Shown here in pieces: positions 10,826-62,340 of a DNA stretch of 64,000 nt. The DNA is from Clytia hemisphaerica (taxonomy: Eukaryota > Cnidaria > Hydrozoa > Leptothecata > Clytiidae), in NCBI GenBank assembly GCA_902728285.1, contig CACVBU010000360.1:62001-126000 (forward strand). The letters run 5' to 3'. The notes beneath the pieces were generated by a model that saw only the letters and a program-made list of their open reading frames with translations, was not told where the DNA came from and did no database searches. Every line of letters starts with the position of its first letter. Position 1 is the first letter of the stretch. The position numbers and the translations under genes were made by a program.

Positions 10826-10898
10826 ATGGGTAATTTATTGCGCCTTATCACTGGCGAGAGCAAAGAAGATTCACAACAAATTTTTCTCGATTTTGAAA
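10826..10898 (+). CDS. CYRI coding exon 1
   Basis: Encodes [20 protein letters not shown] then LDFE, with the donor GAAA|gtaagt. It ends in phase 1; the split codon gives Asn with exon 2 (LDFENA, a family signature). The start is chosen because MGNLL is the conserved myristoylated N-terminus. Confidence 0.95.
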
Positions 10899-13800
10899 GT
10901 AAGTAGATCAAGTTGATAATTTCCAAGTTATTAAGATGTGGATTATTCTTTCTGTTTAATAGCCTTAATCAACCATACCGAAAACTTATAGTGCGAAAAG
11001 TATTATCACTGCTGTCTTAGGAAACCCCTGGTTATTTCAAATCCAGCATTTACACTTTTACCCTACCCTTACTGTTACCCAAATGTTTATTTTCAAATAG
11101 CCCTTTTTGTTTAAATGTGCTGTGCTTCATTGGGCTCTTCCAGAAAAAATTGAATATGGGGGGTGGAGGATGTAACATTTTTTTCAATTTTACCCCCCGG
11201 ACATAGTGAATTTCACCCCCTCCCAGAGAACAGATCTCATCCCCCGGACAAACATCAGTTGACCCTCTCTGACATTCAAAATTACCCCTAAACAGCAAAT
11301 TTGCCCCAAAAACAAGGCAAAGTTTTCAGATTTTTCACTGCCCCCAGACAATATATCCAATATATTCTCCACCCCCCCCTCCATCAACAAAAAATTTCTG
11401 GAAGAGCCCATTGTCGTTCAGAATATTTTTGATCCATAATTATTCTTGAATATACTCTTTTGCAAATCACCAGTCCCTGCTCCTAATACTATCCCAAGGT
11501 AAGATATTTTGTATATCAAGCTCAGATTTTTCAGTCGTTAAGAAATAACTGATGAGCTTGGAGTATGTACTTATAAAAAATTTATTTCTAGATGCAAGGC
11601 CCACACCAGAGGAACAGGAAGTCTGGGAAGTTGTAAATACTGTATTAGAAAATTCTTCAAAGGTCTTAGATGAACTAAAAAATTATAGGGGTGCTAGCGA
11701 TGAAATTCGTCAGGTATATTAATTATTTTTTTTCTATTTATATTTTAACTTTGAGCCACTTTTTTGTCAAGACTGGGAACCACCTCAATTTTAAAATATC
11801 TCAGTTTCCTAATTTTGAGAATGGACATTTTGCCTCGATATCAAGAAAGTCTCATCTCACTATTCAAAGGAATGATTTCTTGACACTTCTATACATTTTT
11901 TCCTTTTCCTTTTCCTTTAGGCTATTAGCAATTCCAGAGATGATGCACTGCAAGAGGTTGCTTGGCAACAAGTTTTGCCTTTGGTTGCAAAGCTAAAGCA
12001 TTTTTACGAATTTTCAATGGAATTAGGTATTTTTTGTGTTCTATGGACTATAATTATATCAAGACAGTTTAAAATCCGAAATGGATCATTCCATCACCAG
12101 GAAATCTCTCAGCGATCTACTTTCTCTCTCAGTTTTAACCACTGGTGATTTAAAAACAGAGTTTTTTCTAACTAGCCATGCACAGTGTTGATTATCTCAC
12201 ATAAGCATACCTTATTACATGAATATTACTAGGCAAGTATTTAAAGGCCTTGAAATTTATGCGATCTGAAATTAACACAAATTTTTTCTGCTTTTTCAAG
12301 GAAACAGCGGCTGGTTTTAATTAAGGGGGGTTTTTATTAACACAACATAAAATAATAAAATTACTAATAATATTCGTGTAATAAGGTAGATACTGGGCTG
12401 GGTAGAAATGATATAAATTTTTACATAATGTGTTAGAAATTGCTTTTTTACTTCCTTCTGAGTTGTAGGACTGCGAGATTCAAACTATGACTTTATTTTA
12501 TTTTATTACAGAAACAATTGTACCACAATTACTTCATGCATTGTGTGTATCTGGCACAAGTGCTGATCAACGATTAACTAACAAACAAGCATTGGCAAAA
12601 CAGTTTGCTGAAGTTTTACATTTTACACTCAAATTTGACGATTTAAAGGTAATGTCGATTTTTGGATCAGGTTCTTCAAAAGATATAAAGGTTTTTTATC
12701 AATTTTGGTCAATCATTAGTTACCAGTTTTGCGTCTATGATTTAGAATTCGACGTCAATATTAACCTATTTCATCCCAATACGGTGTTAAGGAAAAAGCC
12801 ATAGTCGTGGTACAGGCAATTCGAAAGACCTATTTGAAGTTTTTCCAATCTTTTAGAGCACAGTTGCCAAGGAATGGGGTTTTAATTAAAAGACCCTGGA
12901 AGTTAATTTCCAATTGATACTTTTTAATTTGGCTTAATGTCTTTATCATAAATCTTTTTTCTTTTTAGTTAACCAACCCAAATATTCAAAATGATTTTAG
13001 TTATTACAGAAGAACTCTCAGCAGAAAAAGGATAGCAAATGAGGTTTGTCTAATACTCTGCTGGATCTTAAGAGCTTTGAAAATAATACATGATGAAATA
13101 CCAAATAAATTAGCTACTAGGATGGTTGATCACAAGATATATATTATATTATTGTATATTTCTACAATAAACAGCAAAAGAAATTTGTGAGCAAGTACTA
13201 CGCTTTGGTCTTTGTTGGACCCACCCAGAATTACTGTAAATTGATCTGTTTTTGTTCCTCTATTCGTGCCTTCGTTCGTTACCAGCTATTCTCAGGATTA
13301 AAGAGTCCAAATTAGAACAAAATTGTTTTGGCTTTGTTGATTAATCTGGTAGGCACATAAAGTATCACTTGTTGATTATGATATTTCATTTCTTTTTCCT
13401 GTAGGATTCGGGCGTGTCTGCAGCTGACGATCAAGCTCAAGTGACGACAGAAATGGCAAACAGAATGTCACTTTTCTATGCATACCCAACACCTATGTTA
13501 AAGACTCTTAGTGATGCTACATCCAAGTTTGTGTCTGAGGTATGCTACCTATATCGTCACCGACTGCATTTTTGTAAAATAAAAGTGGTAGAGCTAAGCA
13601 ACAAGTTTACTAAGGCTCGAACCTCTGGGATAAGTCAAATATTCTGTTTACTATCTCCTAAAGTAGAAGTATTTTTTGTATTATATGATTATATAAAAAA
13701 TAACGATGGCCCTTGAACAAACAACCATAAGTATGGTATAATATTAGGGGTGGTCGTGGGAGGTTTTTTTCCGAAATTGAGAGAAAATAAAGAATTGGAT

Positions 13801-16800
13801 ATATTTCATGCAAAAGTGCAAAATTGCCTTGAATAAAACTTATTCAGGCTAATATATTCTACACTTTTCTCCTAATCATCGCCGTTGAAAATAAAATTTC
13901 AAAAGAAGCTTGGTTGATGTGTTTCAAAAAATGGTTTAAAAAATGAACTTTTCATAGTGTGCAAAGGGGTTTCAGGTCCCACCTAACTTTAAAGTAAAAT
14001 TCCCACCCTCAATCCAGATTCCCAGATCCCAGCTAAAATGCAATCCCTACGAAAAATTATACTAATTCGAGGAATGAAACAAAAATTCTTACAGTATGAG
14101 TATAGTCAGGGGGTACAGAGGCAGGGTACTAATCCATAGGGTACTAATCCATAGGGTACTAACTTGATTTTTCACTCAATTTCTTTTTAGTACCACCCAC
14201 CCATATTTAGTACCGGGTATTACTTCATTTTTACTGTAAAAAATAGAGACACCACCCCCTAAAATCTTATATTTTACAGATTAGACCAAAAGAGAGGGTA
14301 CAATGTTAGTTTTTCTGACTGAGATGGACAAATAATTCAAACTATCATTGATTAAGTCAGAGGCTTTTGTCCTTTGATTTTAATAACACACTTATTGACC
14401 ATTTCGGAAGTTTTGTCTTCACAAAAATCAAAAAGTTTCTCAATTAAAAAGAATTTCAAATCAAAAAAATAATATTTGAAAAAGTCAAAATATTACAAAA
14501 GACTACTTTTTTATTAAAAAAGGAGCTAAACTCTGTGAAAAGTACCCAAATAGTACCCTGTACTTGCTAGAAGAGTGAAAAATACACACCCCCACCCCTA
14601 AAGTAGTACCGGGTACTAACTTTTTTGAGATGCAAAAATAGACAAAAATAGACAAAAAAGAGAAAAGTATAGTATAGTAAAAGAATTACTTATAGAATAT
14701 TAAATTTAGAAAAAATTATAATTAAATTGGAAATAAGAAAAACTAACGTAATAACTTTTACCAAAACACAAAAAATCCCACCTAAAGAAATTAATCGCCA
14801 CCTTGTTTCTCCCACCTAAAACCTAAAAATTTCCAAATCCCACCTGAAAATTTTTGACCCAGAACACCAAACCCCCCTCTATTCTGGGGGGGGGGTGCAC
14901 ACTATGCTATTGACCAGTACTACCAGATTACTATTACACCATGGTATAAATATTCTCTGTGGAAACCCCCGCTACTTAAACTTCTTCTATTTAGCCTGAT
15001 ATATCTTTTCCAAAAAAGAATGAATCATTTTATTACATCAAAATCTTGTAATATTAGATTTACCTTGGGTGGGTCACCCGTATAAGTCATTTTAAAAGCA
15101 AATTTATATCTTTATCAGGGGTTTTATTGAGTCGAAAAATGATAAGAATCAGCTGCTCAATCAAATAGTGTCATATTAACGGTGGGTTTTATTGGGCTTT
15201 CTCACATATTTTTTATGAGGAATTTCTTACGTTATGCAATCTGGAATTACAACACTATTTTTTTCTTTTCGACTTTAAATAAGTTTATATCAATTTATTA
15301 CCATGTCTTAAAGACACAAAGCCCAATTGTTGCACATCTTGTTAAATCATTTTTCTAAAGTGAAAATATTTTAATCCTTTTTTTTAGCCTTTTAAAACCA
15401 ACCAAACCAATAGACTTGAAATTTTTGACTTTATATATGATACCTATTGGCCAATAAAGCTTTGTTTTTATAAAGGAAAAAAGTAATATATATTTTTTGA
15501 ACAATGATAACTTTTTTGCCATTTCCAAATTTAAGTCGTATATCTTCAAGATTGTGAAATCATAATTTCCAAAAGCGAAAATGTTTATGAGATTTTTGAG
15601 GTAAAATTGGATGATAACTATCTCATAGTAAATTTCCTTTCATCTCACTTTCTTTAGAAGGGATGTCTGGGTGTTATTATTAAAATCAGATAGGGGGCAC
15701 TTTGAACACATCAAAAGATACCGAATTGTGGTATCATTTCTTTTGATAAAAAAATCTTTCTTGTATTACTGCAGTTACTGAAACAAATTGACAGGCTTTA
15801 TGGGGTGGGAAAGAAAAAAATGTATAATCTTTTGTAAGAAACTTTTATAAGAAATCTTTAAAACTTACGTTCTCAATTTTTGGGTTTTAACAAACATTTC
15901 GTGGCTTTTTGCTGTAATTTCTTGAGAAATGACATGTTATAGAGTTTTCAAAGACTTTTTGGCCTCGAAGTCATGTTCTTATGTAATCTCGTTCTTATTA
16001 AAGAAACGTATATATGAAGGCCAAAAACCTAAAATAATATTTCTTCCGAAATTTTATTGACTGTTAATATCGTAATGAAAAGACCTATAGGTCTAAATTT
16101 AGAAAACTTTTAGGAAGTATGATGTTTTTTTAACTCGTTAAGTGCCACTGGTATCATACCAAAGATAAGGAGTTCCCTTTTTTAGACAAGGAAAGGGTTA
16201 AACCGAGGAGTTATTATTTGAAAGGCTTGCTCTCTGACCATTTGAATTATAATTCATAATACCTAATCACAAGATTGTATTAGTCAAAACTAAAATCAAA
16301 TAGCATTATGATGCAATTTTGTGTTTAAATAATAATGAAAAAAAAATTCGTCAAAATAATACCATCAAATTGTTTTGGTTTCAGGTAAATGGTACTTACA
16401 TATTTTGACAGATTAATCTTGAACCAACCGCAAAAGCTGATTAAGACAAAATATAAGCCCCTCCAATGCCTCTCTCTATTGTGTAAGAAAAAGTCTGAGC
16501 TTTATTATTTTTAATATGATGAAATTTTACAGTATTATAATTCTCTTCTTTTATTGTTGTTAATTTTCAGAACAAAAACCTGCCGATTGAAAACACGACA
16601 GATATGTTGAGCACCCTTTGTACCTTATGCCGTGTCATGGTCGAAAATGAGTAAGTCTTCACTGGGCTTTCTTCCAGAAAAAATAATTTTCACCAATCGA
16701 AAAAGATATCGGTGTCTAGGCAATTCCAATATTGACAGACAGGCGGGGTGTAAAAAAATCATTAAGAAATTGGATATCCTAGAGGGGACTCTTTATTCCA

Positions 16801-19800
16801 AAAAATGATATCTAAGAACTTCTAAGTAAATTAATATCCTTAATATAAAGGCGAATCCTTTTTTCTGGGAAAGCCCAATATTTTAATGTATATGGTAAAG
16901 TCACCCATAGCATTTATCACATGCCTAAATTTCCACCACAACTACTAATTCATCTGATATCTAAGCCCCGTGTTCCTAAAATGAAACAATATGTCTTATT
17001 TGTGTGATAGTTGAATTTCTTTTTGCTACATAAATTCTAAAATGTATCAATTTCCGAAAAAAACTGTTGATGAAAAAATTCCCAAAGCTGACAAATTCTT
17101 AAGAATCAAAATGAGAAGTTTGTTTTGAGAATGTTATATCTTCTTAAAATCTTTGTTTCTGGTCTTACTTAATTTTTTGCTTAATCACTGGTATATTTTC
17201 TAAACAAAAAACCCCGTCTCGGTTTTTTATTATACCCTACTGTAGTCATAGACCCGTCATAACATAAAACATATCGTTTCGGCCAAGTGTCAATTTCTCT
17301 TAATTCGGCTTTTTATATTTCTTTCTTACTTTCTTAGTTTGTCCTAACTTAAAACTATTACAGTAATCATTTAAATGCAAAAGGGAAACCCCTGATTTTA
17401 TTAAACGGATTTTCATGGGGTACAATTGGATTATTCAGGGCGAATGTATAACTGTCTAAATCTGAAGGGTCCAAGTGCAAAGACCAATTACCATCCTTTC
17501 CTTCACACCAGAATTTGGTGTAATTTGGTAAAGATGAATCTCTCTAATTCGATCTTCAAGGGGCCAAAAGTTTTCTTCGAATTTGAGAAAGATTCGAATG
17601 ATAAAAGTTCGAATTAAGGAGAGTTGGCTGTATTAAGAATCGCTCTTTAAACTCTTATCGTGAAAAGCCTAGCTGTTGTGTTTTGACAATATCCATGGGA
17701 AGAAATGCTGAGAATCTTGTAATAAGTTCAGTATTTCTAGACTTTGATCCTAGCGCAAGGTCCTATATAGAACTTCGATGATTTATTGATTGGTGATATA
17801 CACGCTTTTTTTTGAATGGTGTAAATCCATTTCATCATGGATATTCTTAACTTTTTTCATAGTGTCCTCCCCCCCCTTTATAAAGGGGGGGGATTCTGAT
17901 TTTGACCCTTTTTTTAAAGTATGGGGGAAAATGAAAAATTTGAAATTTGCTGGGGGAAAATAAAGAGGGGGGAAAACCATAAATTTAGGAGATTTTGACT
18001 GGGGGAACTTCACTGATCTCAAGGTGATCTTGTTGCAAAACCTATTTAAGCAATAAAATCAGCAAATCTTTTGGGATGAACCAACTTTTAATACAATTTC
18101 ATTTTTCCAGCACTTTCAAGGCTATTTTTTCAAGCTTTCCAAAATTTCAAACTTGATTTAAGGCATTTTTATGTTAACCATATGGGGGAACCGCAAAATC
18201 TTCAAATAGCTGGGGGAATTCAAAAAAGAGGGGGGAACCGAAAAATTTTGAAATATGGTGGGGGAAATAAAAGAGGGGGGAATGGAGAAAAATTTTGATT
18301 TTTAGTGGGGGGAACCAACCCAGGAGGACACTATGTTTTTGGGAAAATTATTCTAAAATATTTTTACAGCATTCTTTGGTTAGGATCCTAATTCAGACTA
18401 GATTTAACATTTAGTACATACGTCTCAAGGATAAAATGGCATTTTTGTGAAAGGAGTGAGCCCTGAGCCCTACTTGGGGGTAATTAACAATTTATAATTG
18501 AACATGCTCTAAAAATGGCATTCTTAGGTTTAGCTGCCAAATTCCATGATGGTGATATTCTTAGCATATTCTTAATTTTTTGGCCATTTTCATCATGAAC
18601 ATTCTTATAAAGTGTATCCTTATAAAAAAAGGTTTCGTCAGCTCTGAACGATAACGCCGATGAGTTATATATTAGTAGTGTAATGTAATTCTTATGAATG
18701 TTATAATTTTCAGTTTTCAATTGGTTTACATTACCAGGCTGTAGGATCTTAACCTGGTCTAGTCATTTGTGTGCAGTATTTTTAACTTGAAAAATACGAT
18801 GTAGTAGGAATCTTACATACTAAACACACTGACTGTAAGAAAAAATGATTACATAGGATTAGTGACATGCAAAAACTTGTAATGTCAATTCCAAAAATAT
18901 TCCTGTCAATTTTGTCTGAGCTGATGTTACAAAATTCTCTTTCTATCTAACTCCCTTTATCTTTTTGCTTTTCCTGCCTCGTCTTTCTCTCTGCGATAAT
19001 TTCAACATTTTGATAATTGCGGCTTTATGTCCTAATCTTTTTTGGAATGTTGTATAGAGTTTTTTTGGTTTCTCAACATTTTCTACCATGTTCTCCTTTG
19101 AGCGATACTCGTGAGAAACGTGTTATCACCGCAACTTCCACTTTTCATAACCAAAAAATAATGTACGAGACGTGTTATAGCCTATAGCGGCTTTTGTGAT
19201 GGGCTGTCGGGTGGAATAAGTTGAAGGGTCCTTGCTTGATGGTGTATATAAAGATCTCGTACATTTTAACACATTCAATGTATTGATTATAATGAATGTC
19301 TTTAGGTCCGGCGAGTGAAATTTTTAAACTGGCAAGTCCCAATTTGTTTGTGTCTGTCTCGGGCTAGAAAACATTACTGTCAGCCATACAAAATGAGACC
19401 CTTGTGCTTGACGAAGAAAAAAATTATAGCGGTTTTCAAGTTACACTTTTCATTTACGAATTAAAATACGACCAGATAATTTAATAAACTCTATCATCGC
19501 GGTAGATAGCTTTTGAAATCTCTCAGGGAAACTTTATGGGTTGAGAGAGTATATGATTATTAAGGGGCTTTTCTTTTTATGTGACACGATGATGAGAATT
19601 CCAGGGATGAGTGGAATTTCTTACTCACTTTTTTATGTCCTGTACTCTTATCTCGTTTTTAACAACACTATATCTTTATTACGTGGTCTGAAGATTTCGA
19701 TATAAGAACAATTTGACTACCTTAACCCTTTTCATATCATAAACTTACGTAATAGTCTTTAATGGCTTGCTTGGATAGTGTCATTATGATATCATTCTCA

Positions 19801-28800: not shown

Positions 28801-31800
28801 TTGTTGGTTTTTTTGATTTGTTGGTTTTTTGTTTGATTTCTTGACTCATATATCTCATGGCAAATGGGATAGCAAATGACTTTTCATGTATTGCTTGGCT
28901 TTACATATGATACATCTAACTTTGAACCCTCCAGAATGTTGAAAAAAGCATTTTATGAGATAAGTTTCGATTGTGATTGTAATTTTCATGGAAATTTTTA
29001 ATCGACAGATTTGACTTGGCGTCAGTTTTGTTTGGTTGATAAATCTTTAGCTTTACCATGACCGTGGGATGATTTTCAATAAACTTTGTTGTTATACACA
29101 GTTTTGTTTCCTACACATGATGACTCCAGCCATGATTGGTATCAGAATTTTGGAAAAAAAACATCTTACGACGACGAGAAATTGTTGATAGAAATTATAT
29201 TGACTTATTTTTACAATTTTGGTGGTGTGGGTTTTGTTGTTGTTTACACCGTGGGATCCTGTTAGGGTATCTTGATTGTTGTTTGTTGGAATTGATTACC
29301 AAAAAAAAGAGAACCTTTTTTTGATAAATACTTTATTTTTTTCATGAACCGTGTGGATGGTTGACATCTTTCTCTAGTCTTGTAAACCAATGCAGTGTCT
29401 GTTTTCAAATCTTGAATTCTCTATACCTACTGAACTGAATTGAAGCTCTGACTAGCTCTGTTTAAAGCTATTTAAATGCTTTAAAACTTTGAGGCATATT
29501 CTTTTCTTTGTTGCTATTAAGATAGATTTTTACTTTGTCCTAATGTAAATTTATTGTAAAGTTTTAGTTTTTTGAGTTTAGTTCATCTGCAGTAGTAATT
29601 TTTTCAGTAATCCTTAAATCTTGTGAATAAAGTAACATTTAACCAGACTTATTGCCCTCATTATATTCAAATTTTATTTTTTTTAGGACTGATGAGTACA
29701 TATTTTTAAATACCAAAACAAAGCAAACAACATGCCAGTTCTTTCTGGACAAATATATATGTAATACTTTATTATGTGTGCTTTGATTTTCTATTTTAAT
29801 CAACCCTCTCAACTGCTGATCTTTCAACTATCATTTAGGAGTATAGAATGGGCTTTCATAGTACCATTTTCTCTAAGTATTTTTTACCACTTGCGTGGAT
29901 TAAAATATTATTTTCTCACGATAAAAGCTCACCCTCAATAGGGTGACACGACATTTGTAGAGTTGTTGAACAACTTAAGACTTCGAATTGTAACTTGTAA
30001 CTCTCACCTTGCTTTCTTTTACTAAGGCTAATTATCCCTTTTTATATATGTCAATAATGACCTTCATTTTTAAGGAAATATTTAGTCGCAATTTTGCGAT
30101 TCTTGTTTTTCTCATACGACGACAAAGCCTATGTTACTTTTTTGTCGAAAGTGAAAGTCATCAGAATCCCTCTGTTTGTTCTCATGATCCACTGATGTAT
30201 TGTACGGAGTTTAATTTTACTAGCCTCGTCTGATTCTAAAGGTTCAAGATGAAGTTACTCTTTTTTATACGAACCATAAAATGGCTGTTCTTATTTTAGT
30301 GCCAAAGTGAGGTATTTTTGTAACTCAATTTACTTGAAATTCAGTTGTCCAAGCTGGATTCTGTTCTTGAATAGTTCTTATTTTGAGCCTCATTATTCAT
30401 GTAAAAAGTGAGTGCACATGTAGTCACCAGAAGGAATAACGATGATTTGGTTTGTCTGTCATATTTAGCCTGACATGTTGATTTAGACTAATCGAATTTT
30501 TTTGAGCAATCGAATGAATCGCATGAATCGATGAAACCTAGGGTAACTGAAAGGAATTCGATCAGTTCGTTCAATCAAAGTCGACTCAAATTTGAATTGG
30601 TTAGATTTTTCGATAATCGGATAAATAGTTCGATGCACATGCAGTCGATGGTGGGTTTGAAAAAGTTCGTGCTCTTTAAATGCCATTTAAGCATGCATAT
30701 TTTCATGGTCAGTACAGAAAAAAAGGAGCCACTTCCTTCTAGGCTACGTCATATCTTCCTTCGTTTCGAGCGTAAAACTCCTAATCTAGAGTAAGACCTA
30801 AAAGCCTGGATCTGTCTATTTTGTAGACTACTTCCTTCGGGCGGAAGCGTGGAGGTTTGTTTTGAAAAAGGAATTTTGGATCGGAATTTTTGTGCGTAGA
30901 CCGTCTTGACCAATAGTAGGCCTGCGTTTCTTCTATCCATCAATCAAGCACTTATCTTAAAACCAACTTAAATCAAACTATAAAAGGCCAATATTTACTC
31001 GTGACTAAAATACTCCACGCCAGTCTTGTTTAGTTAGGGGAGGGATAATTTAAATTTTGGCACAAAGGATTTTTCACCAACTCCAAATAAATAGGCTTTG
31101 TTTGTTCATTGCCTAGGAAAATCAAATCTCCTAAAACTTTGGCTATTTTCAAGGTTTGAAATTCACTTGCTTATATTTTGAGACACGTCAGCTAATAAAA
31201 ATATACGTAGCTTCCTCAATATCAATACTGTAACCCGATTGTTGAAGTCATTCTAATCTAGTAAATCGATAACTTATCGATTGATTAAATATCGATTGAT
31301 TAAATTTCTACTTTATATTGATATTAGACCCCAGATAACATCATTTTCCAACCTGTGATGACAAACCCTTTATACCTGGTGATGCAAATAGACCTTCTTC
31401 GGGTCAATGTGACGAATCATCGTTGCAATGAATATTTCACTACGAGTGAAGATGAAAAGTCATAACTTTTTTTGTTTTTGTAGGTTGGTGTTGTGATTCT
31501 TTACGATCACGTTCACCCTGTTGGTGCTTTCACGAAAGTATCCGCCATTGATGTAAGTCATTCAACATTTTCTGCTTCACAAGATTTGTTTCGCCCTAGC
31601 CTTGATTCATTAAGCATTTTTGGAAACACTCGCTTGCTTGGTTTCCTCCCTTACAATTAGATAGGGGTTCCAGATTTTAGAAGAGACTCTGAACCCCTGT
31701 TTTCTGAAATTTTCCAAATCATTTTGGCTCAAAAAAGAAACTTTCTCTGGGTTTGGAAACTAACATTGGATTGATTGGCTTTACAGTTAGACATTTACGT

Positions 31801-34270
31801 AGGTTTTCTGGTCTATCAGGTGGGCTCCATTCTTTTTAATGTTTAACGTTTCTTTCCCCTCGCGATATTTTTCTTTGCAAATTTTATTGAATTAGATGTC
31901 CATATATTAACTCTATAACTTTTTCTTAAACCTTTTTTACTATATTGACTTAGGATTTAGATTCGAGCTTTTTCATTTCATTTTGATGGATTATAGAATA
32001 CTAAATACGAACTACGTCACTAACACTAACTAGACACAGACCGTTTAAAAATGTTATTGCGCCATATCTCGAAAAAATCAACAGCCCTGTACGAAATTTT
32101 GTACATTCAGCTAATTTCTTTACTATATAAAAGTTGTAAAAAAAACGATTTCATTCAACGTTTGGCTTTAGGGTTTTCCAATGCATTCTATTCTATATCT
32201 TATGATAGTAATTATAGAAAGACACCATTATGTCGGTCACTATAGCAATCAATATTAACGCTTTAAATCTTCAGTAGGCATTGGATTAAGGGCGAATACC
32301 ACGAGAACAAGATGGCGAAATGTAAAACTCTAATAGGATTTTTTTTTTTATTTTTTTTATTTAAATCTCTTTTATCACCATTAGATTTGGTATAATAGTT
32401 GGTATAATAGTTGGTATATAGTTTGGTATAATTTTTGTTGAAATGATATCGAATATTGGACAAACTTTTTAATACCTCTAACCCACCCCATCTGTGATAA
32501 GGGGATTACGTTCATCAATGTTCTAAACTGTATACTAAGGCCTAGCTTGCGATAAAAAATTATTTTGTAGGTATTTTCACATAATTGAATGATTACTTTA
32601 CACTCGTTTCCTCTCCAGATGAGAGCCACCATTCGTGTACTGAAAGATCAACCTCAAGGAACAGTCGATGGACTATTTAACGCTTTACGGTAAATTATGT
32701 TTATTTTTCCTTGTATTACCACCAAAATCCTTAAAGAGGTTTTTTTTTAATAAGAACAGCCAAACTTTTTAAAGCTTTCGGATGTTTTTAACTTTTCGAG
32801 TTTCAAGCCTTAAAATGTTCATAATATGCTCATATCTTCACCATAATGTGAATATTTTTTGTCCATTTTCCCAAGAGATCGGGTGTTTTAGAGTCCTTAT
32901 ATACTTTGTTCTTATAAAAAACGTGCACCAGGGTTATTTATGTTTTCACAAATTGATACAAAAGAAATCATGCAGACATTTTTTGATTGACATGCACAAT
33001 TCAATAGAAAACCTATTGTCAATTACATTGTTAATATTAAACGACTTACAATTAATTTTAGTATTATTTGGGGCGACCATGTCGACCAGTAAAATCTATC
33101 GTTATATTTCTTCAGCACCTACAAACTCTTTACTGTACATATGATTCATTTTTTCTAAAAGAAAGCGTTTTCGGCAGATTAGAGGGAGTTATTTTTGATT
33201 AAGTCATCAGAAAAATAGTTTTTCACTTTCTTATTTTCTTTCGTGTAAAGCTGATACATTTAATTTGTTTGGATAAGGCAAGACGATATTTGAATTGTGT
33301 CGAATCTTTAACATTGGAAAAAAAAAGAGAAAGGCGATATTAGAGGTTTATGCTTTAAATGCTTTCCTACGTCATATACACAGATTTTCATACAAAAAGT
33401 GGAAAAAATTCCTCGTTAATTTAGATTGAGATATTGAATCTAATTACAAAATTGGTTTGTAGAAAAAAGCACATTTTCTAGATGATTTAAACTTTACAAC
33501 TTAGATTTGTATCAAGTGACTCAGCGAAGTGAGTCTCCACCTTTTTTGCTCAACTTTAATCGCGCACACTATCGCGTATGTTCCTGATTAGAAAAGCTGA
33601 TTTGCGAGGAGTAATGAGCACAAAAAAGTTTCTTAATCACTCCCATACACCGGAAACACATTCTAATTGTGATTTCAAGTTTTTCAAGCTTTTTAATGGT
33701 TTGCTCTAATGACATGTTTTTAATAGATTTTGATTTATTATCGACACAAACATACTAAAGGCCGCTACCCATTCAGCATTTTATGGTCGGCGAACAAGAC
33801 GCACGGCTCGGGCGCTTTGGTCGCTGTACGCTTTTCTCATTCCACTCTGCAGCACATGTTTTTCTCTCTTCTTTTGTTTATCATCTTTTTGCACATGAAA
33901 CACATCTTTTGCACACGAAACAAGAAAAAAATTCTCTTTTCTGATTGGTTGATTTGATAAAAACAAAGGGTAAGCTGTCCAGCTTCGCGAAAAAAGTTAA
34001 AAAGTTTCAACTCTTGTTGCGCTCAAAGCGAACGCCTTTGAAGGCTTGATTTGTGTAATTTATGCAATAATTAAGCCGCGCGCCTTGTTCGCCGACCATA
34101 AAATGCTGAGTGGGTAGCGGCCTTAAGATCTTTTCATAAGAAACGAAATGAACAAGAGCCATAAGGCACTCGATATTTTGAATTGTTGATTTTGTTCCTT
34201 TTTCAGGTATACGACGAAACATTTGAGCGACGATACGACTCCTAAACAAATCAAAATGCTACTTGCATGA
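10826..34270 (+). CDS. CYRI (FAM49A/FAM49B homologue): CYRI (FAM49) Rac1-binding actin regulator, complete, 11 coding exons
   Basis: Exons: 10826-10898, 11592-11713, 11921-12026, 12512-12648, 12969-13043, 13405-13539, 16571-16650, 22058-22115, 31484-31552, 32619-32689, 34207-34270. Together they make 990 nt: 329 codons and a TGA, against 323-324 residues in vertebrate proteins, with all phases compatible. CYRI proteins bind active Rac1 at the plasma membrane and restrain the Scar/WAVE complex. The start MGNLLRL keeps Gly2, the N-myristoylation site. [12 protein letters not shown] places two arginines at residues 160-161, the same numbers as the Rac1-contacting pair in [36 protein letters not shown] and TTKHLSDDT are family signatures. 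The gene lies tail to tail with Myc. Whether it is orthologous to CYRIA or CYRIB is not a meaningful question here if it predates the vertebrate duplication. Confidence 0.97.
11131..11410. mobile_element. TGGGCTYTTCCAG-family MITE, copy 1 (CYRI intron 1)
   Basis: The left end TGGGCTCTTCCAGAAAAAAT is mirrored by ...TTTCTGGAAGAGCCCA on the right. The interior carries C/G runs. The two short minus-strand ORFs here are artefacts of the repeat. Confidence 0.7.
11592..11713 (+). CDS. CYRI coding exon 2
   Basis: Follows TTTATTTCTAG and ends CGTCAG|gtatat. It encodes [15 protein letters not shown] through [13 protein letters not shown], matching the YKGAGxEIR block of the family. Confidence 0.95.
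11921..12026 (+). CDS. CYRI coding exon 3
   Basis: Follows a pyrimidine-rich TTTTCCTTTAG and ends TTAG|gtattt. It encodes [15 protein letters not shown] and [14 protein letters not shown], the KLKxFYEFS helix of the family. Confidence 0.95.
12512..12648 (+). CDS. CYRI coding exon 4
   Basis: Follows TTTTATTACAG and ends TTTAAAG|gtaatg. It encodes [20 protein letters not shown], nearly identical to the conserved QALAKxFAEILHFTLRFDEL core of CYRI proteins. Confidence 0.96.
12969..13043 (+). CDS. CYRI coding exon 5 (Rac1-contact arginines)
   Basis: Encodes [20 protein letters not shown] then RIANE. The Arg pair falls at residues 160-161. Flanks are CTTTTTAG and GAG|gtttgt. Confidence 0.96.
13405..13539 (+). 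CDS. CYRI coding exon 6
   Basis: Starts after TTTTTCCTGTAG and ends TCTGAG|gtatgc. The first ~12 codons ([12 protein letters not shown]) are a variable loop, slightly longer than in vertebrates; this accounts for part of the extra length. [20 protein letters not shown] then follows. Confidence 0.95.
13540..16570 (+). other. CYRI intron 6, repeat-rich
   Basis: No exon was seen. From 13.9 to 14.9 kb the sequence alternates between TCCCACC-type blocks and a repeated GTACTAATCCATAGG motif (14126-14165), with AGTACCGGGTA appearing at ~14209 and ~14607. It ends in a CCCCCCTCTATTCTGGGGGGGGG hairpin-like stretch near 14873-14896. It looks like an old transposon whose ends I could not fix. Confidence 0.5.
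14105..14630. repeat. GTACTAATCC / AGTACCGGGTA repeat block
   Basis: A short tandem GGGTACTAATCCATA (about 2.5 units, 14128-14165) is followed by two direct copies of a CACCC...AGTACCGGGTA segment about 400 bp apart. The origin is unknown. Confidence 0.5.
16571..16650 (+). CDS. CYRI coding exon 7
   Basis: Follows TTAATTTTCAG and ends AATGA|gtaagt. It encodes [20 protein letters not shown] then RVMVEN, against the family [16 protein letters not shown]. Confidence 0.95.
16663..16877. mobile_element. TGGGCTYTTCCAG-family MITE, copy 2
   Basis: It begins TGGGCTTTCTTCCAGAAAAA just inside CYRI intron 7 and ends ...TTTTTTCTGGGAAAGCCCA, an inverted and slightly diverged repeat. It shares ends, but little interior, with the copy at 11131-11410. 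Confidence 0.65.
17286..17633. mobile_element. pogo/Tigger-like MITE remnant
   Basis: The right end, read inverted, is TACAGCCAACTCTCCTTAATT followed by CGAAC; the left end near 17286 reads GTCAATTTCTCTTAATTCGG. This resembles the CAGTNGACTCTCNNTAATTCGAAC ends of pogo/Tigger-type elements. The 63-codon ORF inside is not meaningful. Confidence 0.45.
17800..18632. mobile_element. ACACGC(T)n element, interrupted by a CATAGTGTCC MITE
   Basis: The left end is ACACGCTTTTTTTTGAATGG, with ...CTTATAAAAAAAGG on the right (decayed). Outside the nested 478-bp MITE and its 5-bp duplication, about 350 bp remain and align along their length with the uninterrupted 351-bp copy at 25075-25425. Shared landmarks include ATCATGGATATTCTTAACTT and GGATCCTAATTCAGACTAGA. 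Confidence 0.85.
17858..18335. mobile_element. CATAGTGTCC-family MITE, copy 2
   Basis: The ends are CATAGTGTCCTCC and GGAGGACACTATG, flanked by TTTTT on each side. The unoccupied site is visible in the sister host element at about 25129-25140 (AACTTTTTTGGGAAAATC). The interior has repeated GGGGGAA blocks and a CCCCCCCTTTATAAAGGGGGGG palindrome at 17870-17892. Confidence 0.9.
22058..22115 (+). CDS. CYRI coding exon 8
   Basis: A 58-bp exon between introns of 5.4 and 9.4 kb. It encodes [20 protein letters not shown] (first codon split). It is easily missed by a gene caller. Flanks are CCGTTTTCAG and ATG|gtgaga. Confidence 0.92.
22156..22295. mobile_element. pogo/Tigger-like MITE remnant
   Basis: The right end inverted reads TACAGTTCACTCTCGCTAATT followed by CGAAC; the left side has GCTTATTCGAACTTC. 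It is a short decayed copy. Confidence 0.45.
23550..23725. repeat. CACGTTTTTTATAAGAACA-family element, degraded
   Basis: ACACATTTTATTTATAAGAC leads into the family body: AGCCTTCGGATGTTCTTAAC, then GGGTGTTTTATGAGTC and AAGCCTTAAAATG. It lacks a clear right end. Confidence 0.55.
24768..25070. repeat. ACACGC element, older diverged copy
   Basis: ACGCTTTTTTCAAAAGAATG starts a diverged version of the element that follows at 25075. It keeps CATGAATATCTTTAACTTTT, GGATCCAATCCCAG and TTCTTACCATATTCTTAATT in the same order. Confidence 0.6.
25075..25425. mobile_element. ACACGC(T)n element, intact 351-bp copy
   Basis: The left end ACACGCTTTTTTATAAGAAT is mirrored by ATTCTTATAAAAAAAAGCGT plus GT on the right. 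It is non-coding. It preserves the empty target site of the MITE at 17858. A further terminal fragment, TTCTTATTAAAAAAAGCGTG, follows at about 25443-25462. Confidence 0.8.
28175..28260. repeat. Possible DNA-transposon end with G/C runs
   Basis: GTGCCGTAGCTACCGGGGGG followed by AGCTAAAGGGTGCTTAG and a 13-base C-run resembles the CAGTGGCGTAGC...GGGGG ends common to many invertebrate hAT-like elements. No matching right end was found. Confidence 0.35.
31484..31552 (+). CDS. CYRI coding exon 9
   Basis: Encodes [20 protein letters not shown] then AID, the most conserved block of the family. Flanks are TTTTTGTAG and GAT|gtaagt. Confidence 0.96.
31553..32618 (+). other. CYRI intron 9
   Basis: Nothing except a short tandem TTGGTATAATAG (about 3.5 units, 32389-32430). 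The overlapping minus-strand ORFs come from that repeat. Confidence 0.55.
32389..32430. repeat. TTGGTATAATAG short tandem repeat
   Basis: Two full 12-bp units and two partial ones in tandem. Confidence 0.7.
32619..32689 (+). CDS. CYRI coding exon 10
   Basis: Encodes [20 protein letters not shown] then NALR (last codon split). Flanks are CCTCTCCAG and CG|gtaaat. Confidence 0.95.
32740..32926. mobile_element. CACGTTTTTTATAAGAACA-family element
   Basis: TTTTTTTTAATAAGAACAGC on the left and TGTTCTTATAAAAAACGTGC on the right are inverted partners. The body has GCTTTCGGATGTTTTTAACT and GATCGGGTGTTTTAGAGTCC, shared with the copies at 23550, 43585, 46501 and 57416. Confidence 0.7.
33759..34123. mobile_element. 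PIF/Harbinger-like MITE with TAA duplication
   Basis: The ends begin AGGCCGCTACCCATTCAGCA and continue TTTTATGGTCGGCGAACAAG; the right end is the inverted match with one early mismatch. TAA flanks both sides (33756-33758 and 34124-34126), the TWA-type 3-bp duplication known for PIF/Harbinger transposons. It has no transposase, so it is non-autonomous. ORFs on both strands come from the inverted repeat. It lies 80 bp upstream of the last CYRI exon. Confidence 0.8.
34207..34270 (+). CDS. CYRI coding exon 11 and stop
   Basis: Encodes [20 protein letters not shown] after the split Arg, then TGA at 34268-34270. The acceptor is CTTTTTCAG. Vertebrate proteins end ...SKQIKSMLQ, so the C-terminus is the normal one. 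Confidence 0.95.
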
Positions 34271-37200
34271 TCACTTCCTTTACGGCCAATTGGTCAATCT
34301 TTTGAAAACACTTTAAAATTATGCAAGATAATATAAATTAATACTGAAGAGAGGATGAGTTTGTATGCTTCACTTGCAGGGATATGTAGATTGGAGATAA
34401 TTAGAAATTTTTACAAGATTTTAACACTGTCTGAGGGTATTAATGACATTTTACTGATACCACCCACCGTAACCCTTTTTCGGTATCTAAAGTCTGTGTC
34501 TCAATATAATTTGCAGTGAAGACAAAAAAGGCTTTAACTTTTCCTAGATTTTGAATTAGATAGCGGTTTTGTGCTTGTTGAAAAGATTAGCAGGAGTGGA
34601 ATATTATCAAAAAGAAAAAACTCAAAAAAGATCGGAAAATGAAGATTGGAAAATGAAGAAGAAGAAAATCAACTTCTTCAATAATTGTGCTACTGTATAA
34701 TTATCATTTAACACGGTGATTCTTTGATCTTAGAACATCATTAATCCGAAAAAACTTTTCAATTATCTTTTGATAATATTCCACTCCGGATTATCTTTTT
34801 AACGAGCACAAAACCGCTATCTAATTCGCATTCTATCAAAAGTTACAGTCATTTTTGTCTCCGCTGCAAATTATACTGAGACAAACTTTAGTATCCTCCA
34901 TAACCACATTATTTAGGAATGAACCATTTTGAAAACCAAATTTTTTAGTGCAATTTTTTTTCATTTGAACTTTGTGAACATACTTTTTATTTGTAATTTT
35001 GTTAGATTTTTTGTGTTTTTTTTTTTGCTTGCATTGTAATTTTTTAGGGCTTTACTTTGTACACAGGAAAGAGGCTTTGACACAATCACCCTTGCCCATT
35101 TTTTTCTTCTTTACTTTATTGCTATTTGTAAATTGTAGATTTATTCAGAAAAGAAAAGTCTGGAAAAAGATATGAAACTGATTTTGGCGTGTAAAGGTTA
35201 TGTTATGTTTGTTATCCCCAAGTTTGACCAAATTTCATAAATATTGTTACGCATGAAAGGTATTTATATAGTTTCCAGGAAATTATTGATTTTGAAAATA
35301 TTTTGTGTTTCTGTTATTTAAGAAACTGTTAAAGAGGGGGTCATTTGAATAAATATTTGTTTACCATTTGCATTCGTCTTTATTACGCAATCATCTTGAC
35401 AGTGCTCATTTTGTAAAACAAAGTGCTACTTCAAGATATGAGAATAAACATTTTATGTCATGGCATTATATTGAAGAATAATAATAAAAAGAAAAATAAT
35501 CAAAACAAACTTTTTTCATAACAATCATAAACATTTGTCAATCTTTATCCAAATAAACAAATCGTCTTGTCTGAGGAAAAGAAAATTCCTGAGGGTTTTT
35601 CCTTCTGTTGTCTCGTCTGGCGTGAAAATTTTCGGCAGAACCCCCTGGATGGACAAACTAAAGAATCTTTTGTTTTTAGTAATTGAAATTTGAAATATTT
35701 GAAGATGAGAATAAAGTCATTGTTCTTTTAAAGCTGAAATGTGTACTGAAAATACTCAATTATGCAAATTACGCAAAGTCTTTATCTAATTGTTAGTTAA
35801 ATATTTATTAAATAGAAGCGAAAAAAAAATGATCATGTGGCAAGCCTAAACAACTTCACTTTTTTATGCCTTTCTTGAATAAAGCTATTTTTTAAGAGAA
35901 CAACGAAAGTTAGGGTTGTGTAAATTTTTCTATTTTTTCAAACAAAATGCATTATTAAGACAATATTCTCGTGAGGTCATCACTTAGCTTAGAAAAGGAA
36001 ATTGATTATAAAGATAATGTTGATTATCTTCCATTCGTCGTGGCCTTTGTTCAAATAAAAATCTTTTTCATGAAAAAAATGCCCATGCTTAATTTGCTAA
36101 AGGAAACTCAAACGTCCTAACGGAAATTGAATGAGGGAGCTAAAATAGAACCACCAGCTTTCAGAAGGCAGGGTTTTCCATTCTTTCCCTAGGAAATGTT
36201 TTTCACACGATCTAATACAATGTTTATATACTACATTCAAATAACAAATGTTCTTTTAAAAAACTTCGAGATCCATTTCACAATGATATACTAATATAGC
36301 AACTATTTTACTATGAAATAACTTGTAAAACCAGTTTTGAGGGTTTCATTCTGTTTTACATCAGCTTTTTATAGGAAACTTCAAAAGATTTTCTTATTTG
36401 TTATTGTTCTTGTAAAAAAATGTAAACTTGTTTTAGTCTGCTGCACAATAGACGTTTTTGTGTGCTAGTCAGGTGATAGAATCATGCAGAAAAAGAGCTC
36501 GAATGGAATTATACAAATGTGATAAACAACCAGTTTGTTTAGCATGGTTGCTGATCTCAGAGACCAGTTGTTAGAAATGTTTTCACCGAACGTTTGAGGG
36601 TTTAACAAAATCCAACACCATTTAATAACTGATTTAGCGCTTGTGAAAGAAAAAAAGTAAGCTAAATATAAAATTAACAACGTTTAAATGGATTTAAAGA
36701 TACTTAATAAAAAAGAGAAGAAAAGACTTGTAATAAACACGAGAACATGAATGGTGTCATGTCTAATGATTAATAAAAGAATGTAAGAATTAGAATGAAG
36801 TTTCTTTCGCAATGGCGTTACTTTTTCTGATTGTGTTTACAACTAAGTATTAAATTTAAGGCAGCTGATTACTTATCATATAATGTTAACTAAAATCATG
36901 TATTTACTTTCTGATCCAATTCAATATTATTCGTGTCAGATTCATATTACCAAGCAAAGAATATTGTTTCGAAAAGCTACTTTTTCATAAATTGACAATC
37001 ATTAGGGGGAAGGTAAACAGTCAGACAAAGACGATACATAAGTTATTCGACTTCTCTTTTTATAAAAATTCTTTTTTCTCATGAGTCGTCTAGTGAAACA
37101 TCGAATTACAAGTTAGGAGCTTTTTAAGTATTCCTCCGAGTATAAGCATCAGAAAAATTCAAAATAATTCATTTTAATACAAATGTTAACTAAATTCAAA

Positions 37201-38126
37201 TATGTTTGAAATAAAATTTCTAACAAAAGCTTTGAGAAAAAAACTTTTATTAGTTTGCAAACCAATGTAAACAAAAGTGCTCGAAAATACAAGATTTCTT
37301 TACTAGTTGTGAAAAAGCGAGTCAAAATATTATCTTAGAACTAACTTTCCCTTAGAAAACAACATTTTTATCCGAACACAAAAAGGTAATAAAAATATGA
37401 AAATTGCAACGCTTTTCCTATGTCGAATTTTTCATACCCCTCCCCGTAAAGGATTGAATGGACGAAATTTCAAATACTTGTAAATTCAATCAAAATTCTT
37501 GAGCTGATTTAACATGATGATAGATGTAAAAAAATTCGACAAAGGAAAAGAACTGTAAAAAGAGCAATACATAAAAAATAGTGGAAAACCCCAAAAACAC
37601 ATAAAAATGTTGTCGAAATCGTTAACAAACAAAAAAAGACTTATCAGTGTTATCAAAATCTTATTAAAACACGACAAAGAGAAAGCCTCCTGAAAATGAC
37701 TTTATGAAAAATTTGAACAAATACAGCATTTTATAAGCTGGCTATCTAAAAAGAAAAATTGAAAAAAGTAATTAAAAAATTAGCTATCATTCCCTAAAAT
37801 AATTTCGGGAGTTTAGATAACGAAAAAAGCCTTGGTTTTAAGTCATAAACTAATAAAATCTTACAAGTATAAATGCATATAGTTTTTACACGAGATCTTT
37901 AATATCTTTTAAATAGTTTTTTGAATATTTACATATAAACATTTCAGTTTTAAAATATAATTTTTTGGAAGAAAAAAGTTTGGGTTTATGTTTTAGTGTT
38001 TTGACTATTTAGTTCCTAACAAGACCAACCCTTTTTCTTGCGATAGAAATTATACAATTCCTCCTGACATATATATACTTTTAGGGTGCATCTTAAAAAA
38101 GCATCAGCTAGCTAAGCTCCACAATT
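34271..38126. other. Convergent CYRI-Myc spacer holding both 3'UTRs
   Basis: 3.9 kb between the two stop codons. AATAAA hexamers on the plus strand (for example 35348-35353) and TTTATT on the minus-sense side allow several poly-A sites, which I cannot choose between. Apart from the fold-back at 34481-34895, no further structure was seen. No ORF here looks real. Confidence 0.55.
34481..34895. repeat. Long fold-back inverted repeat in the CYRI 3'UTR region
   Basis: Left arm ~34481-34620 and right arm ~34756-34895 are inverted copies, about 140 bp each at high identity. The left arm includes TTAGATAGCGGTTTTGTGCT and GAGTGGAATATTATCAAAA; the right arm has AGCACAAAACCGCTATCTAA. The loop is ~135 bp. 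It starts ~210 bp after the CYRI stop codon, so if the transcript reaches it the RNA would fold into a long hairpin. Confidence 0.8.
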
Positions 38127-38620
38127 TCAATCAATATTACATACAGCCTTCAATAATTCTAATTTTCTCATCAAGTCTTCGTTACGTTGTCGTAATTTTT
38201 GTTTCTGTTCGTCCAACTCCTTTTCTTCACGTTTTAAGTCCTCGATATGATTTGCTGCCTTTTTCAAAACAATAACTTTCGGCGTTTTGTCAATTTTCTC
38301 AAGATTTGGGACACATTCACGTAATCTTTCAAAACTTTTCTTCAAATCGATTCTTCGTTTTCTTTCGAGGACGTTATGAGTGGCTCGCCTCGTTTCAGGA
38401 TCAGAATCGTAAGGACTTGTAGCTGATCGGCGTGAAGCACGGTCTGGTTTATCATTTTGAATTCGGCTGGGTGCACTTTTCGTTCTTTTGAAACAGACTT
38501 GTGGGTTTGACGTTTGAAGTTTTGCCAAAATTATCGTGTTTGGAGCTTGTTTGCGTTTGATTCCAATCGTGATGGGAGTGGAAGGAATTGCGTCAACTGT
38601 CACAACGTCAATTTCTTCGT
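38127..38620 (-). CDS. Myc coding exon 2 (acidic block and bHLHZ)
   Basis: Acceptor TTTTTCTTCTTCAG, then DEEIDVVTVDAIPS. The open frame runs on upstream to 38723, but that extension is intronic. A basic-rich linker leads into the bHLHZ; the C-terminus is LELLKAVCNID. Confidence 0.95.
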
Positions 38621-39437
38621 CTGAAGAAGAAAAATGAATGAACATTTTTTTTAGGAAAGAAAAAATTGCAAACATAAACATTCGAAAATTATGGGTGTAT
38701 TTCGCAATCGTTTCATCGACCAATCAGAAGCGAGAAAAACGTTCGAATATGATGTTCGAAAGATTTTAAGGGTCATTCTACATTTTCAATTCTTTTTAAT
38801 TCGTCTAAACTGTTAAAAATGTCGATTCCTAACTATAGAAAAAGCCAAAAATTAAATGTTTACCTGAGTCAGATTGTCCAGAGAGCATTGAGGGTAGATT
38901 TTCTTGTGACGAAGGGAGAGGGAAAACGGTGGTAGGGTCAACACAATCGGTAGATGACGGATAATCACCATGTTCTGTCGTAACGTTTGGGATGGGGCTT
39001 GCACAAGGAGTCGGATAAAGGTCTTCTTCTGTGTCGATAGAGTCGATAGAAAGTTTCGGTTGAGTAAAAGTAACATTACGAGATTTCTCTTTCGTGTCTG
39101 ATCCATGATTTCCCGACCACATACAATCCGATATCAACTTTGAGCGTAAATATTTAGCGTCCGGTAATACACAACTTGTAATATCAAACGCGGAGTCTAA
39201 ACTATCACAAACGTCTTGTAAACGATTAGCAATATCTTGAGTGTTGTCATTACATTCCGAAGTTTCGCCAAAGGTTCTCGGGGGAGAACTTGGCGGGGTA
39301 AGAGGTAGTGAAAATTTCCGCCACATATCATCGTTAGGATTCGAGTCGTAGAGTAATGTTTTCGAAGCCATATCTTCTTCGTTGTTGTAGTCGTTCGACC
39401 AATTACTTGAATTCGTATTTATAACACTAGTCACCAT
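38127..39437 (-). CDS. MYC: Myc proto-oncogene transcription factor, complete, two coding exons
   Basis: Exons 39437-38864 and 38620-38127 join to 355 codons plus TGA. Myc dimerises with Max and binds CACGTG E-boxes to drive growth genes. Myc box I is at residues ~36-53 (DDMWRKFSLPLTPPSSPP), with Thr47 and Ser51 at the spacing of the human Thr58/Ser62 phosphodegron. Myc box II is at 104-109 (DCMWSG). DEEIDVVTV follows the splice junction, as in vertebrate Myc. The basic-helix-loop-helix-leucine zipper fills residues 269-355, with THNVLERKRR as the DNA-contact region (His273, Glu277, Arg281). The protein is much shorter than vertebrate c-Myc (about 440 aa). The intron sits at the same place, beside the acidic EEIDVV block. 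Upstream on the same strand is CAD; downstream, convergent, is CYRI. Confidence 0.96.
38621..38863 (-). other. Myc intron between coding exons (243 bp)
   Basis: Donor gtaaac, acceptor cttcttcag. Unusually small compared with the kilobase introns of the two neighbouring genes. Confidence 0.9.
38864..39437 (-). CDS. Myc coding exon 1 (Myc boxes I and II)
   Basis: It begins exactly at the ATG: the minus strand reads TATTTTTAG|ATGGTG, so the preceding exon is non-coding. It ends TCAG|gtaaac in phase 1 after SGQSDS. It also holds an acidic stretch, DTEEDLYPTPCASPIP. Confidence 0.95.
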
Positions 39438-39641
39438 CTAAAAATAAGAGGAACTTTGATGAATACGCTTTCATTCATAACTTTATACAACAAGCTTTTA
39501 AAATAAAAAGGAGCAATGAGACATAGCACATCTAATTAGAGTCCCTGTGGTGATTCACAAACAGAAAGGTTGCTAGCAACAGCACATAAGTATGTACCCA
39601 TTTTTATCGCAAAGGCTAGATAAAATAAATGTAATACTTAC

Positions 39642-41472: not shown

Positions 41473-54993
<13,521 letters not shown>

Positions 54994-57415: not shown

Positions 57416-57644
57416 ACAAGTTTTTTTTGTAAGAACAAACTTTTTAAGAACATAAGGCTTCGATGGCCTAAATATCAAAGAACCTTTCAAGGCTTCATGG
57501 GCTCTAAAATGCCCAATTTCTTGGGAAAAAATACTAAAACAATGGTAAAAATAAGAACATTTTAAGAACATTTTAGGCTTAAAACTCGAAAAGTTAAGGA
57601 CATCCAAAGGCTTCAAAAATTTCGGATGTTATTATAAAAAAACC
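57416..57644. mobile_element. CACGTTTTTTATAAGAACA-family element
   Basis: ACAAGTTTTTTTTGTAAGAA and, inverted, GGATGTTATTATAAAAAAAC. The body has GGCTTCGATGGCCTAAA, GCCCAATTTCTTGGG and AAGAACATTTTAGGC. Confidence 0.65.
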
Positions 57645-61669: not shown

Positions 61670-62340
61670 TTATACAGAGTGTTTCAAATAAAGGCTCAAT
61701 CCTTCCTTCTTTTTTATTGCATCTCTCAGATCACGAGAACGTATTATTTGAATGAATGACGTGTTTTTGACAATAAAAATTGACATAATATTGATCCGAT
61801 TTCAAACTCGTCTACAGTGTGCCTCAAACTAATCTGTTTTACTTCCTCATTTAATACAGCGTGTATCAAAAAGTAATTCCTCTACAGTGTGTCAATCATA
61901 ATGAACTTTCCTTTTATACAGCGTGCCTCAAAAAAAAGGCATCAATTTTCAATGATGACAGATTTGTGGTTTTCAGAGACATTGTGAATTATCCAATTAA
62001 TTCAAATTCCTCTACAGTGTGTGTCAATAATAATGAACTTTCCTTTTATACAGTGTGCCTCAAAAAAAGTATCAATTTTCAATGATGAAAGATTTGTGGT
62101 TTTCAGAGACATTGTGAATTATCTAATTTCAAATTCCTCTACAGTGTGTGTCAATCATAATGAACTTCCTTTTGATACAGTGTGCCTCGAAAAAAGAATG
62201 GATGATGAAAGATTTGTGGTTTTCAGAGCCATAAAAACTATCTAAGTTTAAATACTATACTTTTTTTTACGGTGTGTCACAAGAAAAAAGTATTAATTCA
62301 CAATGAAAAATCATTTGTGGCTTTGTTGATTATGTAAATC
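61670..62340. repeat. ~127-130-bp tandem array of TACAGTGTG units
   Basis: Three well-matched units start at 61881, 62011 and 62138, each with TCTACAGTGTGTGTCAAT(C/A)ATAATGAAC-like starts, a second ATACAGTGTGCCTCAAAAAA in the middle and GATTTGTGGTTTTCAGAG at the end. Diverged units extend the array on both sides. Overlapping ORFs translate it as a repeated peptide, an effect of the period. The TACAGNGTGTCTCAAAA core resembles the ends of mariner-type elements. Confidence 0.85.

Follow-up and report, generated by a model that had tools for sequence, protein, structure and literature searches.

The locus described here raises the question of whether two unrelated animal genes that stand tail to tail in a jellyfish have been neighbours since before cnidarians and bilaterians parted, and of what has kept them together. 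It lies in a stretch of 64,000 nucleotides of Clytia hemisphaerica (contig CACVBU010000360.1, positions 62,001 to 126,000 of the forward strand), called the window below, to which all positions refer. CYRI, a gene of cell movement and an inhibitor of Rac1-WAVE signalling, was found on the + strand and Myc, a gene of growth control and a basic helix-loop-helix (bHLH)-zipper transcription factor, on the - strand, and in the spliced models the two genes were found to be convergent, with 3,856 bp between the stop codons (34271-38126). The tail-to-tail arrangement with 3.9 kb between the stops, as claimed in the original prediction, is confirmed by this measurement, and the claimed span of 10826..39437 was found to be exact, the ATG of CYRI beginning at 10826 and that of Myc at 39437. 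The local order was CYRI > < Myc < CAD. With the linkage found in other animals, it is rather probable that CYRI and Myc already lay close together in the cnidarian-bilaterian ancestor, in a probably tail-to-tail arrangement, and that this pair was copied to the vertebrate pairs.

The CYRI gene (orthologue of CYRIA/CYRIB, FAM49; 10826..34270, + strand) was modelled with 11 coding exons from a tblastn search with a human CYRIB sequence, the splice sites, the translation and the Pfam family PF07159. Exons 1 to 6 were placed at 10826-10898, 11592-11713, 11921-12026, 12512-12648, 12969-13043 and 13405-13539, followed by exons 7 to 11 at 16571-16650, 22058-22115, 31484-31552, 32619-32689 and 34207-34270. 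All introns were found to be GT..AG, and the translation contained 329 amino acids, with position 34270 in frame with a stop. Introns 1-5 were 207-693 bp long and introns 6-10 were 1.1-9.4 kb long, the longest being 3.0, 5.4 and 9.4 kb. The spliced protein was 100% identical over 329 residues to the database protein named CYFIP-related Rac1 interactor B-like [Clytia hemisphaerica] by NCBI (P0001), which is carried on two contigs, the longer one of 457,901 bp. In this identical protein, the CYRIA/CYRIB Rac1-binding domain PF07159 was found to cover model positions 1-301 of 301 (E 4.8e-135), and this full-length domain places the window protein in CYRI (FAM49). A scan of IMG/VR and GTDB contigs for CYRI, in which exact 8-residue matches were required, gave no relatives, as expected for an animal gene.

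The Myc gene was found to contain two coding exons on the - strand that encode 355 amino acids. Coding exon 1 (39437-38864) contained the motifs FSLPLTPPSSP and DCMWSG, which are taken to be Myc box I-like and Myc box II-like, respectively, and the Pfam domain Myc_N (E 8.6e-11; 42.6 bits, cut-off 24.4), followed by coding exon 2 (38620-38127) with DEEIDVVTV, the bHLH-zipper (Pfam HLH, E 4.8e-14; 52.3 bits, cut-off 20.7) and the stop. The coding intron of 243 bp (38621..38863, GTAAAC..CTTCAG) lies immediately 5′ of DEEIDVVTV, and the second intron of vertebrate MYC lies at the same place. In an alignment with six other Myc proteins, the invariant TPPxSP, DCMWxG and ExDVV columns were all matched, and by its Myc_N and bHLH domains, boxes I and II and EEIDVV motif the protein belongs to the Myc family. 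The nearest database protein (P0121) differed at 3 of the 355 residues (99% identical), perhaps by strain variation, CYRI being identical to its own counterpart. In a midpoint-rooted tree of 32 rows, window Myc was placed beside P0121 inside a hydrozoan Myc group that included Hydractinia and Hydra Myc2, with support of 99/98; three rows of this tree had long branches and 9 of the 29 inner forks were weak, and it therefore supports the identity of the gene and not a detailed history. A scan of IMG/VR with P0121, under the same 8-residue requirement, gave no relatives of Myc, as expected for an animal gene.

Directly 5′ of the Myc ATG, the Myc strand was found to contain TTTTTAG (39438-39447 in + strand letters), with the AG abutting the ATG. 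It is possible that this AG is the acceptor of a non-coding first exon, such as vertebrate MYC has, or a spliced-leader site. A link between the genes through shared E-boxes was dropped as a candidate, the window containing 4 CACGTG sites against about 6 estimated from base composition.

That the window is misassembled or the genes misidentified is very improbable. The join of CYRI and Myc was read from one assembly; against this, the coding models of both genes are complete, with Pfam matches that exceed the cut-offs, both genes lie within one continuous stretch of 64 kb, and such a join is expected from the linkage in other species. The pairing is also beyond chance, because it had been predicted from vertebrates and was not chosen from the window. 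With a genome of presumably about 26,000 genes in Clytia, the chance that one named gene is the convergent 3′ neighbour of another was estimated at about 1 in 50,000.

The vertebrate counterparts are the pairs MYC-CYRIB and MYCN-CYRIA, which in human are presumably convergent as well. Statements from cited papers, here and below, refer to excerpts of those papers. Promoter guides for human MYC were placed at chr8:127.736-127.737 Mb (PMC13202998) and human FAM49B at chr8:129,841,470-130,016,672 (PMC8764030), so that the two genes are about 2.1 Mb apart by these published positions. In mouse, a table of chromosome 15 gives the order Myc, Gsdmc, Fam49b, Asap1 (PMC5774710). FAM84B was found to flank MYC (PMC6288875) and FAM84A is among the neighbours of MYCN (PMC10446492), which fits the duplication of a whole block. 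The positions on 8q24 and 2p24 that the original prediction had given for the two human pairs agree with the published coordinates. For the second pair, MYCNOS and GACAT3 are assumed to be non-coding, leaving no other coding gene in the list given with MYCN and FAM49A for a germline duplication in 2p24.3. This duplication of 1.49 Mb (15.85-17.33 Mb) lists, in the excerpt, only MYCN, MYCNOS, GACAT3 and FAM49A (PMC12878678).

The human pairs and the Clytia pair thus consist of the same two adjoining gene families, presumably convergent in human too, and differ in spacing. MYC and FAM49B are separated by about 2.1 Mb and MYCN and FAM49A lie within the 1.49 Mb duplication, whereas the distance in Clytia is 3.9 kb, and the mouse table differs from Clytia by the presence of Gsdmc between Myc and Fam49b (PMC5774710). 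The tightness in Clytia is partly an effect of genome size.

Linkage in other species was assessed from a protein search that gives the size of the longest contig for each protein cluster, sizes equal to the base in one species being taken as the same contig. The best 120 of 1,559 CYRI matches, 62 Myc matches and the best 120 of 2,132 matches from a six-sequence Myc alignment were compared by eye. Only named species with contig sizes for both genes were counted, and Hydra was excluded as its CYRI came without a contig. The sample was set by similarity and contains no sponge, placozoan or ecdysozoan pair. One Myc match, P0161 (Em0023g45a), is by the style of its name probably from the sponge Ephydatia. 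The matches in Lineus and Amphiura prompted the method, and the alignment query included the Myc of these two species, whose match had already been seen; its application then gave the two misses and the remaining four matches.

Among the matches listed, CYRI and Myc were found on one contig in 6 of 8 species besides Clytia, and in 6 of 7 when only non-vertebrates are counted, so that the two genes were linked in most of the non-vertebrates instead of lying apart. A shared contig was found in the anthozoan Nematostella (19,319,694; protein clusters P0020/P0268), the nemertean Lineus (25,598,605; P0074/P0150), the crinoid Antedon (22,273,604; P0094/P0221) and the brittle star Amphiura (64,221,909; P0087/P0146), in all four of which the linkage was seen at the level of large contigs only. 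The mollusc Patella was found to contain a shared contig of 48,777,860 with the loci SNE40_011588 for CYRI (P0079) and SNE40_011586 for Myc (P0252), two numbers apart, which leaves at most one annotated gene between them if the numbering follows position, and the brachiopod Lingula was found to contain a shared scaffold of only 777,183 bp (P0096/P0184). The spacing in Patella and Lingula is probably of short range. CYRI and Myc share a contig across distant phyla, as is expected of an ancient microsyntenic pair.

Several observations weigh against an ancient close pair. In the crinoid Anneissia, CYRI and Myc were found on separate scaffolds (P0061, 1,515,431; P0215, 985,037), which leaves no tight linkage unless both genes lie at scaffold ends, though scaffolds of 1.5 and 0.99 Mb are too short to decide linkage on a chromosome. 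In the elephant shark Callorhinchus, CYRIA and Myc-2 were found on different contigs (P0093, P0261), though these are possibly not partner paralogues. The closeness in Patella would hold only on the assumption that locus numbers track position. Any pair of genes from the same ancestral linkage group would, moreover, share a chromosome; a common chromosome is only moderately informative, because animal chromosomes retain their gene content for very long.

Neighbourhood is more informative than linkage because the gene order within chromosomes is strongly shuffled. In the hydrozoans Podocoryna and Hydractinia, 13 chromosome pairs correspond one to one and the gene order is extensively rearranged (PMC13119343), two hemichordates showed no apparent microsynteny in the excerpt of PMC11175523, and sea anemones and other cnidarians were reported with poor microsynteny and few blocks of at least three genes (PMC10719294). 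With gene order so poorly conserved, a retained neighbour is therefore not the default. Microsyntenies of mostly two genes showed no difference in number across cnidarian, chordate and protostome sets (PMC10719294), and therefore one surviving pair is not extraordinary.

The same shuffling of hydrozoan gene order on chromosomes of stable content (PMC13119343) would suit a history in which the ancestor had the two genes linked on one chromosome and no more, a later rearrangement within that chromosome having brought them tail to tail in Clytia. This history would also accommodate the four of the six matching species that give large-contig linkage only, as well as Anneissia, which gives none. 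It is nevertheless improbable, as the Patella loci are two apart, the Lingula scaffold is 777 kb long, no other coding gene is listed between human MYCN and FAM49A in the excerpt of PMC12878678, and several lineages would hardly have gained the same neighbour independently. Direct adjacency was read in Clytia only, beside the loci two apart in Patella, the 777 kb scaffold in Lingula and the separate scaffolds in Anneissia; strand, too, was read only in Clytia, and adjacency beyond chromosome linkage and the orientation are inferred for the ancestor.

The claim that a single CYRI-Myc pair predated the vertebrate genome duplications is supported by the shared contigs in six invertebrates and by the human positions. 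The linkage is probably older still, preceding the cnidarian-bilaterian split and hence earlier than first proposed, and the close spacing is probably ancestral. On the favoured account, CYRI and Myc would have been close, probably tail to tail, before cnidarians and bilaterians parted; the vertebrate genome duplications would then have copied the pair to MYC-CYRIB and MYCN-CYRIA, followed by expansion of the intergenic DNA in vertebrates, and Clytia would retain the compact form.

As to why the pair was kept, regulation offers a tentative answer, with a likelihood somewhat short of even. Regulatory DNA acting on Myc may lie 3′ of the gene, within CYRI itself and the spacer between the two genes, and breaks there would then be selected against. 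Vertebrate Myc is under long-distance control, which together with the survival of both duplicated pairs weakly favours this answer. In a CRISPR interference screen with MYC amplified, 2 of the 15 most depleted guides were found to map to FAM49B (PMC13202998); MYC is amplified there, and the effect of the guides could be off target or come from FAM49B itself. Other published observations count against a regulatory reason. FAM49B was reported to lie outside the topologically associating domain (TAD) of MYC and to be scarcely affected by deletion of a MYC enhancer (PMC8764030), and mice lacking the gene desert that flanks Myc on its opposite side expressed Fam49b at mostly equal levels, with the exception of one mammary tumour model in which expression was reduced (PMC6288875). 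The excerpt on sea anemones gives no clear evidence of TADs (PMC10719294). The long CYRI introns were dropped as a sign of regulation, as the adjoining CAD gene contains an intron of about 8.1 kb in the window.

The pair may also be ancestral with nothing holding it together, an explanation that rivals the regulatory reason and not the ancestry. Among thousands of ancestral neighbour pairs some would persist by chance and slow rearrangement, and the short spacer in Clytia would be a small target for breaks. The similar numbers of two-gene microsyntenies across clades agree with this, surviving pairs being no rarity (PMC10719294). It also agrees with the content of the spacer (34271..38126, including the 3′ untranslated regions), which was found to be AT-rich (28.9% GC), with AATAAA signals on both strands and an inverted-repeat element of 387 bp (34497..34883; arms of 116 bp, 86% complementary) that starts 226 bp past the CYRI stop, and in which any regulatory element would be hypothetical. 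Of the 70 segments of the window with the best coding scores, none was found in the spacer, where open reading frames of at least 60 amino acids exist that were not searched with Pfam. On the other side, the closeness in Clytia, and probably in Patella and Lingula, together with the persistence of both vertebrate copies across megabases, seems to exceed what a random pair would give. Neutral survival is almost as likely as regulatory constraint, and the window does not decide between the two. A stronger form of the regulatory reason, in which the pair would be among the oldest selectively kept regulatory neighbourhoods of animals, the DNA of the spacer and the CYRI introns would have controlled Myc since before the cnidarian-bilaterian split and the cancer-associated deserts of MYC and MYCN would be its expanded descendants, is doubtful.

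The remaining features of the window were as follows. A second inverted-repeat element (33755-34127; arms of 54 bp, 93%) was found in the last CYRI intron, and both elements look like miniature inverted-repeat transposable elements. The neighbour of Myc on its 5′ side, on the same strand and absent from the original prediction, is the 3′ part of the gene for CAD, a pyrimidine-synthesis enzyme (41473..54994, - strand). Its aspartate carbamoyltransferase domain was found by tblastn with the domain of human CAD as query (best E 1.9e-19), and six approximate exons were placed from the tblastn segments, frames and splice signals at 54994-54920, 53576-53406, 52638-52483, 44333-44193, 41976-41881 and 41580-41476. 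The protein ends with GRF followed by a stop that ends at 41473, about 2.0 kb from the Myc ATG. Human CAD presumably lies on 2p23, on the chromosome arm that also carries MYCN and CYRIA. A long open reading frame of retrotransposon type (3-2705, + strand; Pfam RVT_1, E 1.9e-27) was found to be cut by the window start; among eight further open reading frames chosen for Pfam only this retrotransposon reached the cut-off, the flanks not being searched exhaustively, and further genes of small exons may be present there. At 61875-62232 a unit of 130 bp was found repeated 2.8 times in tandem, its copies being readable as a similar short peptide, and four copies of another repeat, each about 100-120 bp long, were found dispersed in the window (23555-23673, 32742-32860, 46610-46706 and 57526-57643), two of them inside CYRI introns. 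No Rfam family reached the gathering score in the whole window.

The CYRI-Myc pair probably adds a further case to a known class, the ancient microsyntenic pairs. Genomic regulatory blocks with bystander genes resemble it in that an unrelated gene stands beside a developmental regulator that has long-range enhancers in vertebrates. They differ in that any enhancer of Myc within CYRI is hypothetical and human FAM49B is reported to lie outside the MYC TAD (PMC8764030). The metazoan pairs xrn2-nkx2.1 and pax1/9-slc25a21 likewise consist of a transcription factor and an unrelated neighbour held across phyla; for these, adjacency was scored in several genomes (PMC11175523), whereas adjacency of CYRI and Myc was read directly in Clytia only. 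In a literature search on FAM49/CYRIB, MYC and synteny, with the major microsynteny tables and supplements outside its reach, no paper was found to present the pair as conserved across animals. The pair may already be listed in such published tables, and the survey of Irimia 2012 is said to be the best known on ancient animal microsynteny. By term search in the excerpts, Myc was not named in the main text of PMC8851819, PMC12221973 and PMC10719294, and in PMC9023564 it was found only within a reference.

The control of MYC in vertebrates rests on enhancers of very long range, and it is unclear how these arose. With a compact CYRI-Myc pair in a jellyfish that can be studied in the laboratory, one could ask whether the oldest control elements of Myc occupy a few kb beside CYRI. 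The pair would also date the MYC-CYRIB and MYCN-CYRIA loci, both within tumour-amplified regions, far back in time, and it is a clean test pair for the question of whether cnidarians, in which gene order is poorly conserved and, in sea anemones, TADs were not detected, keep particular neighbours.

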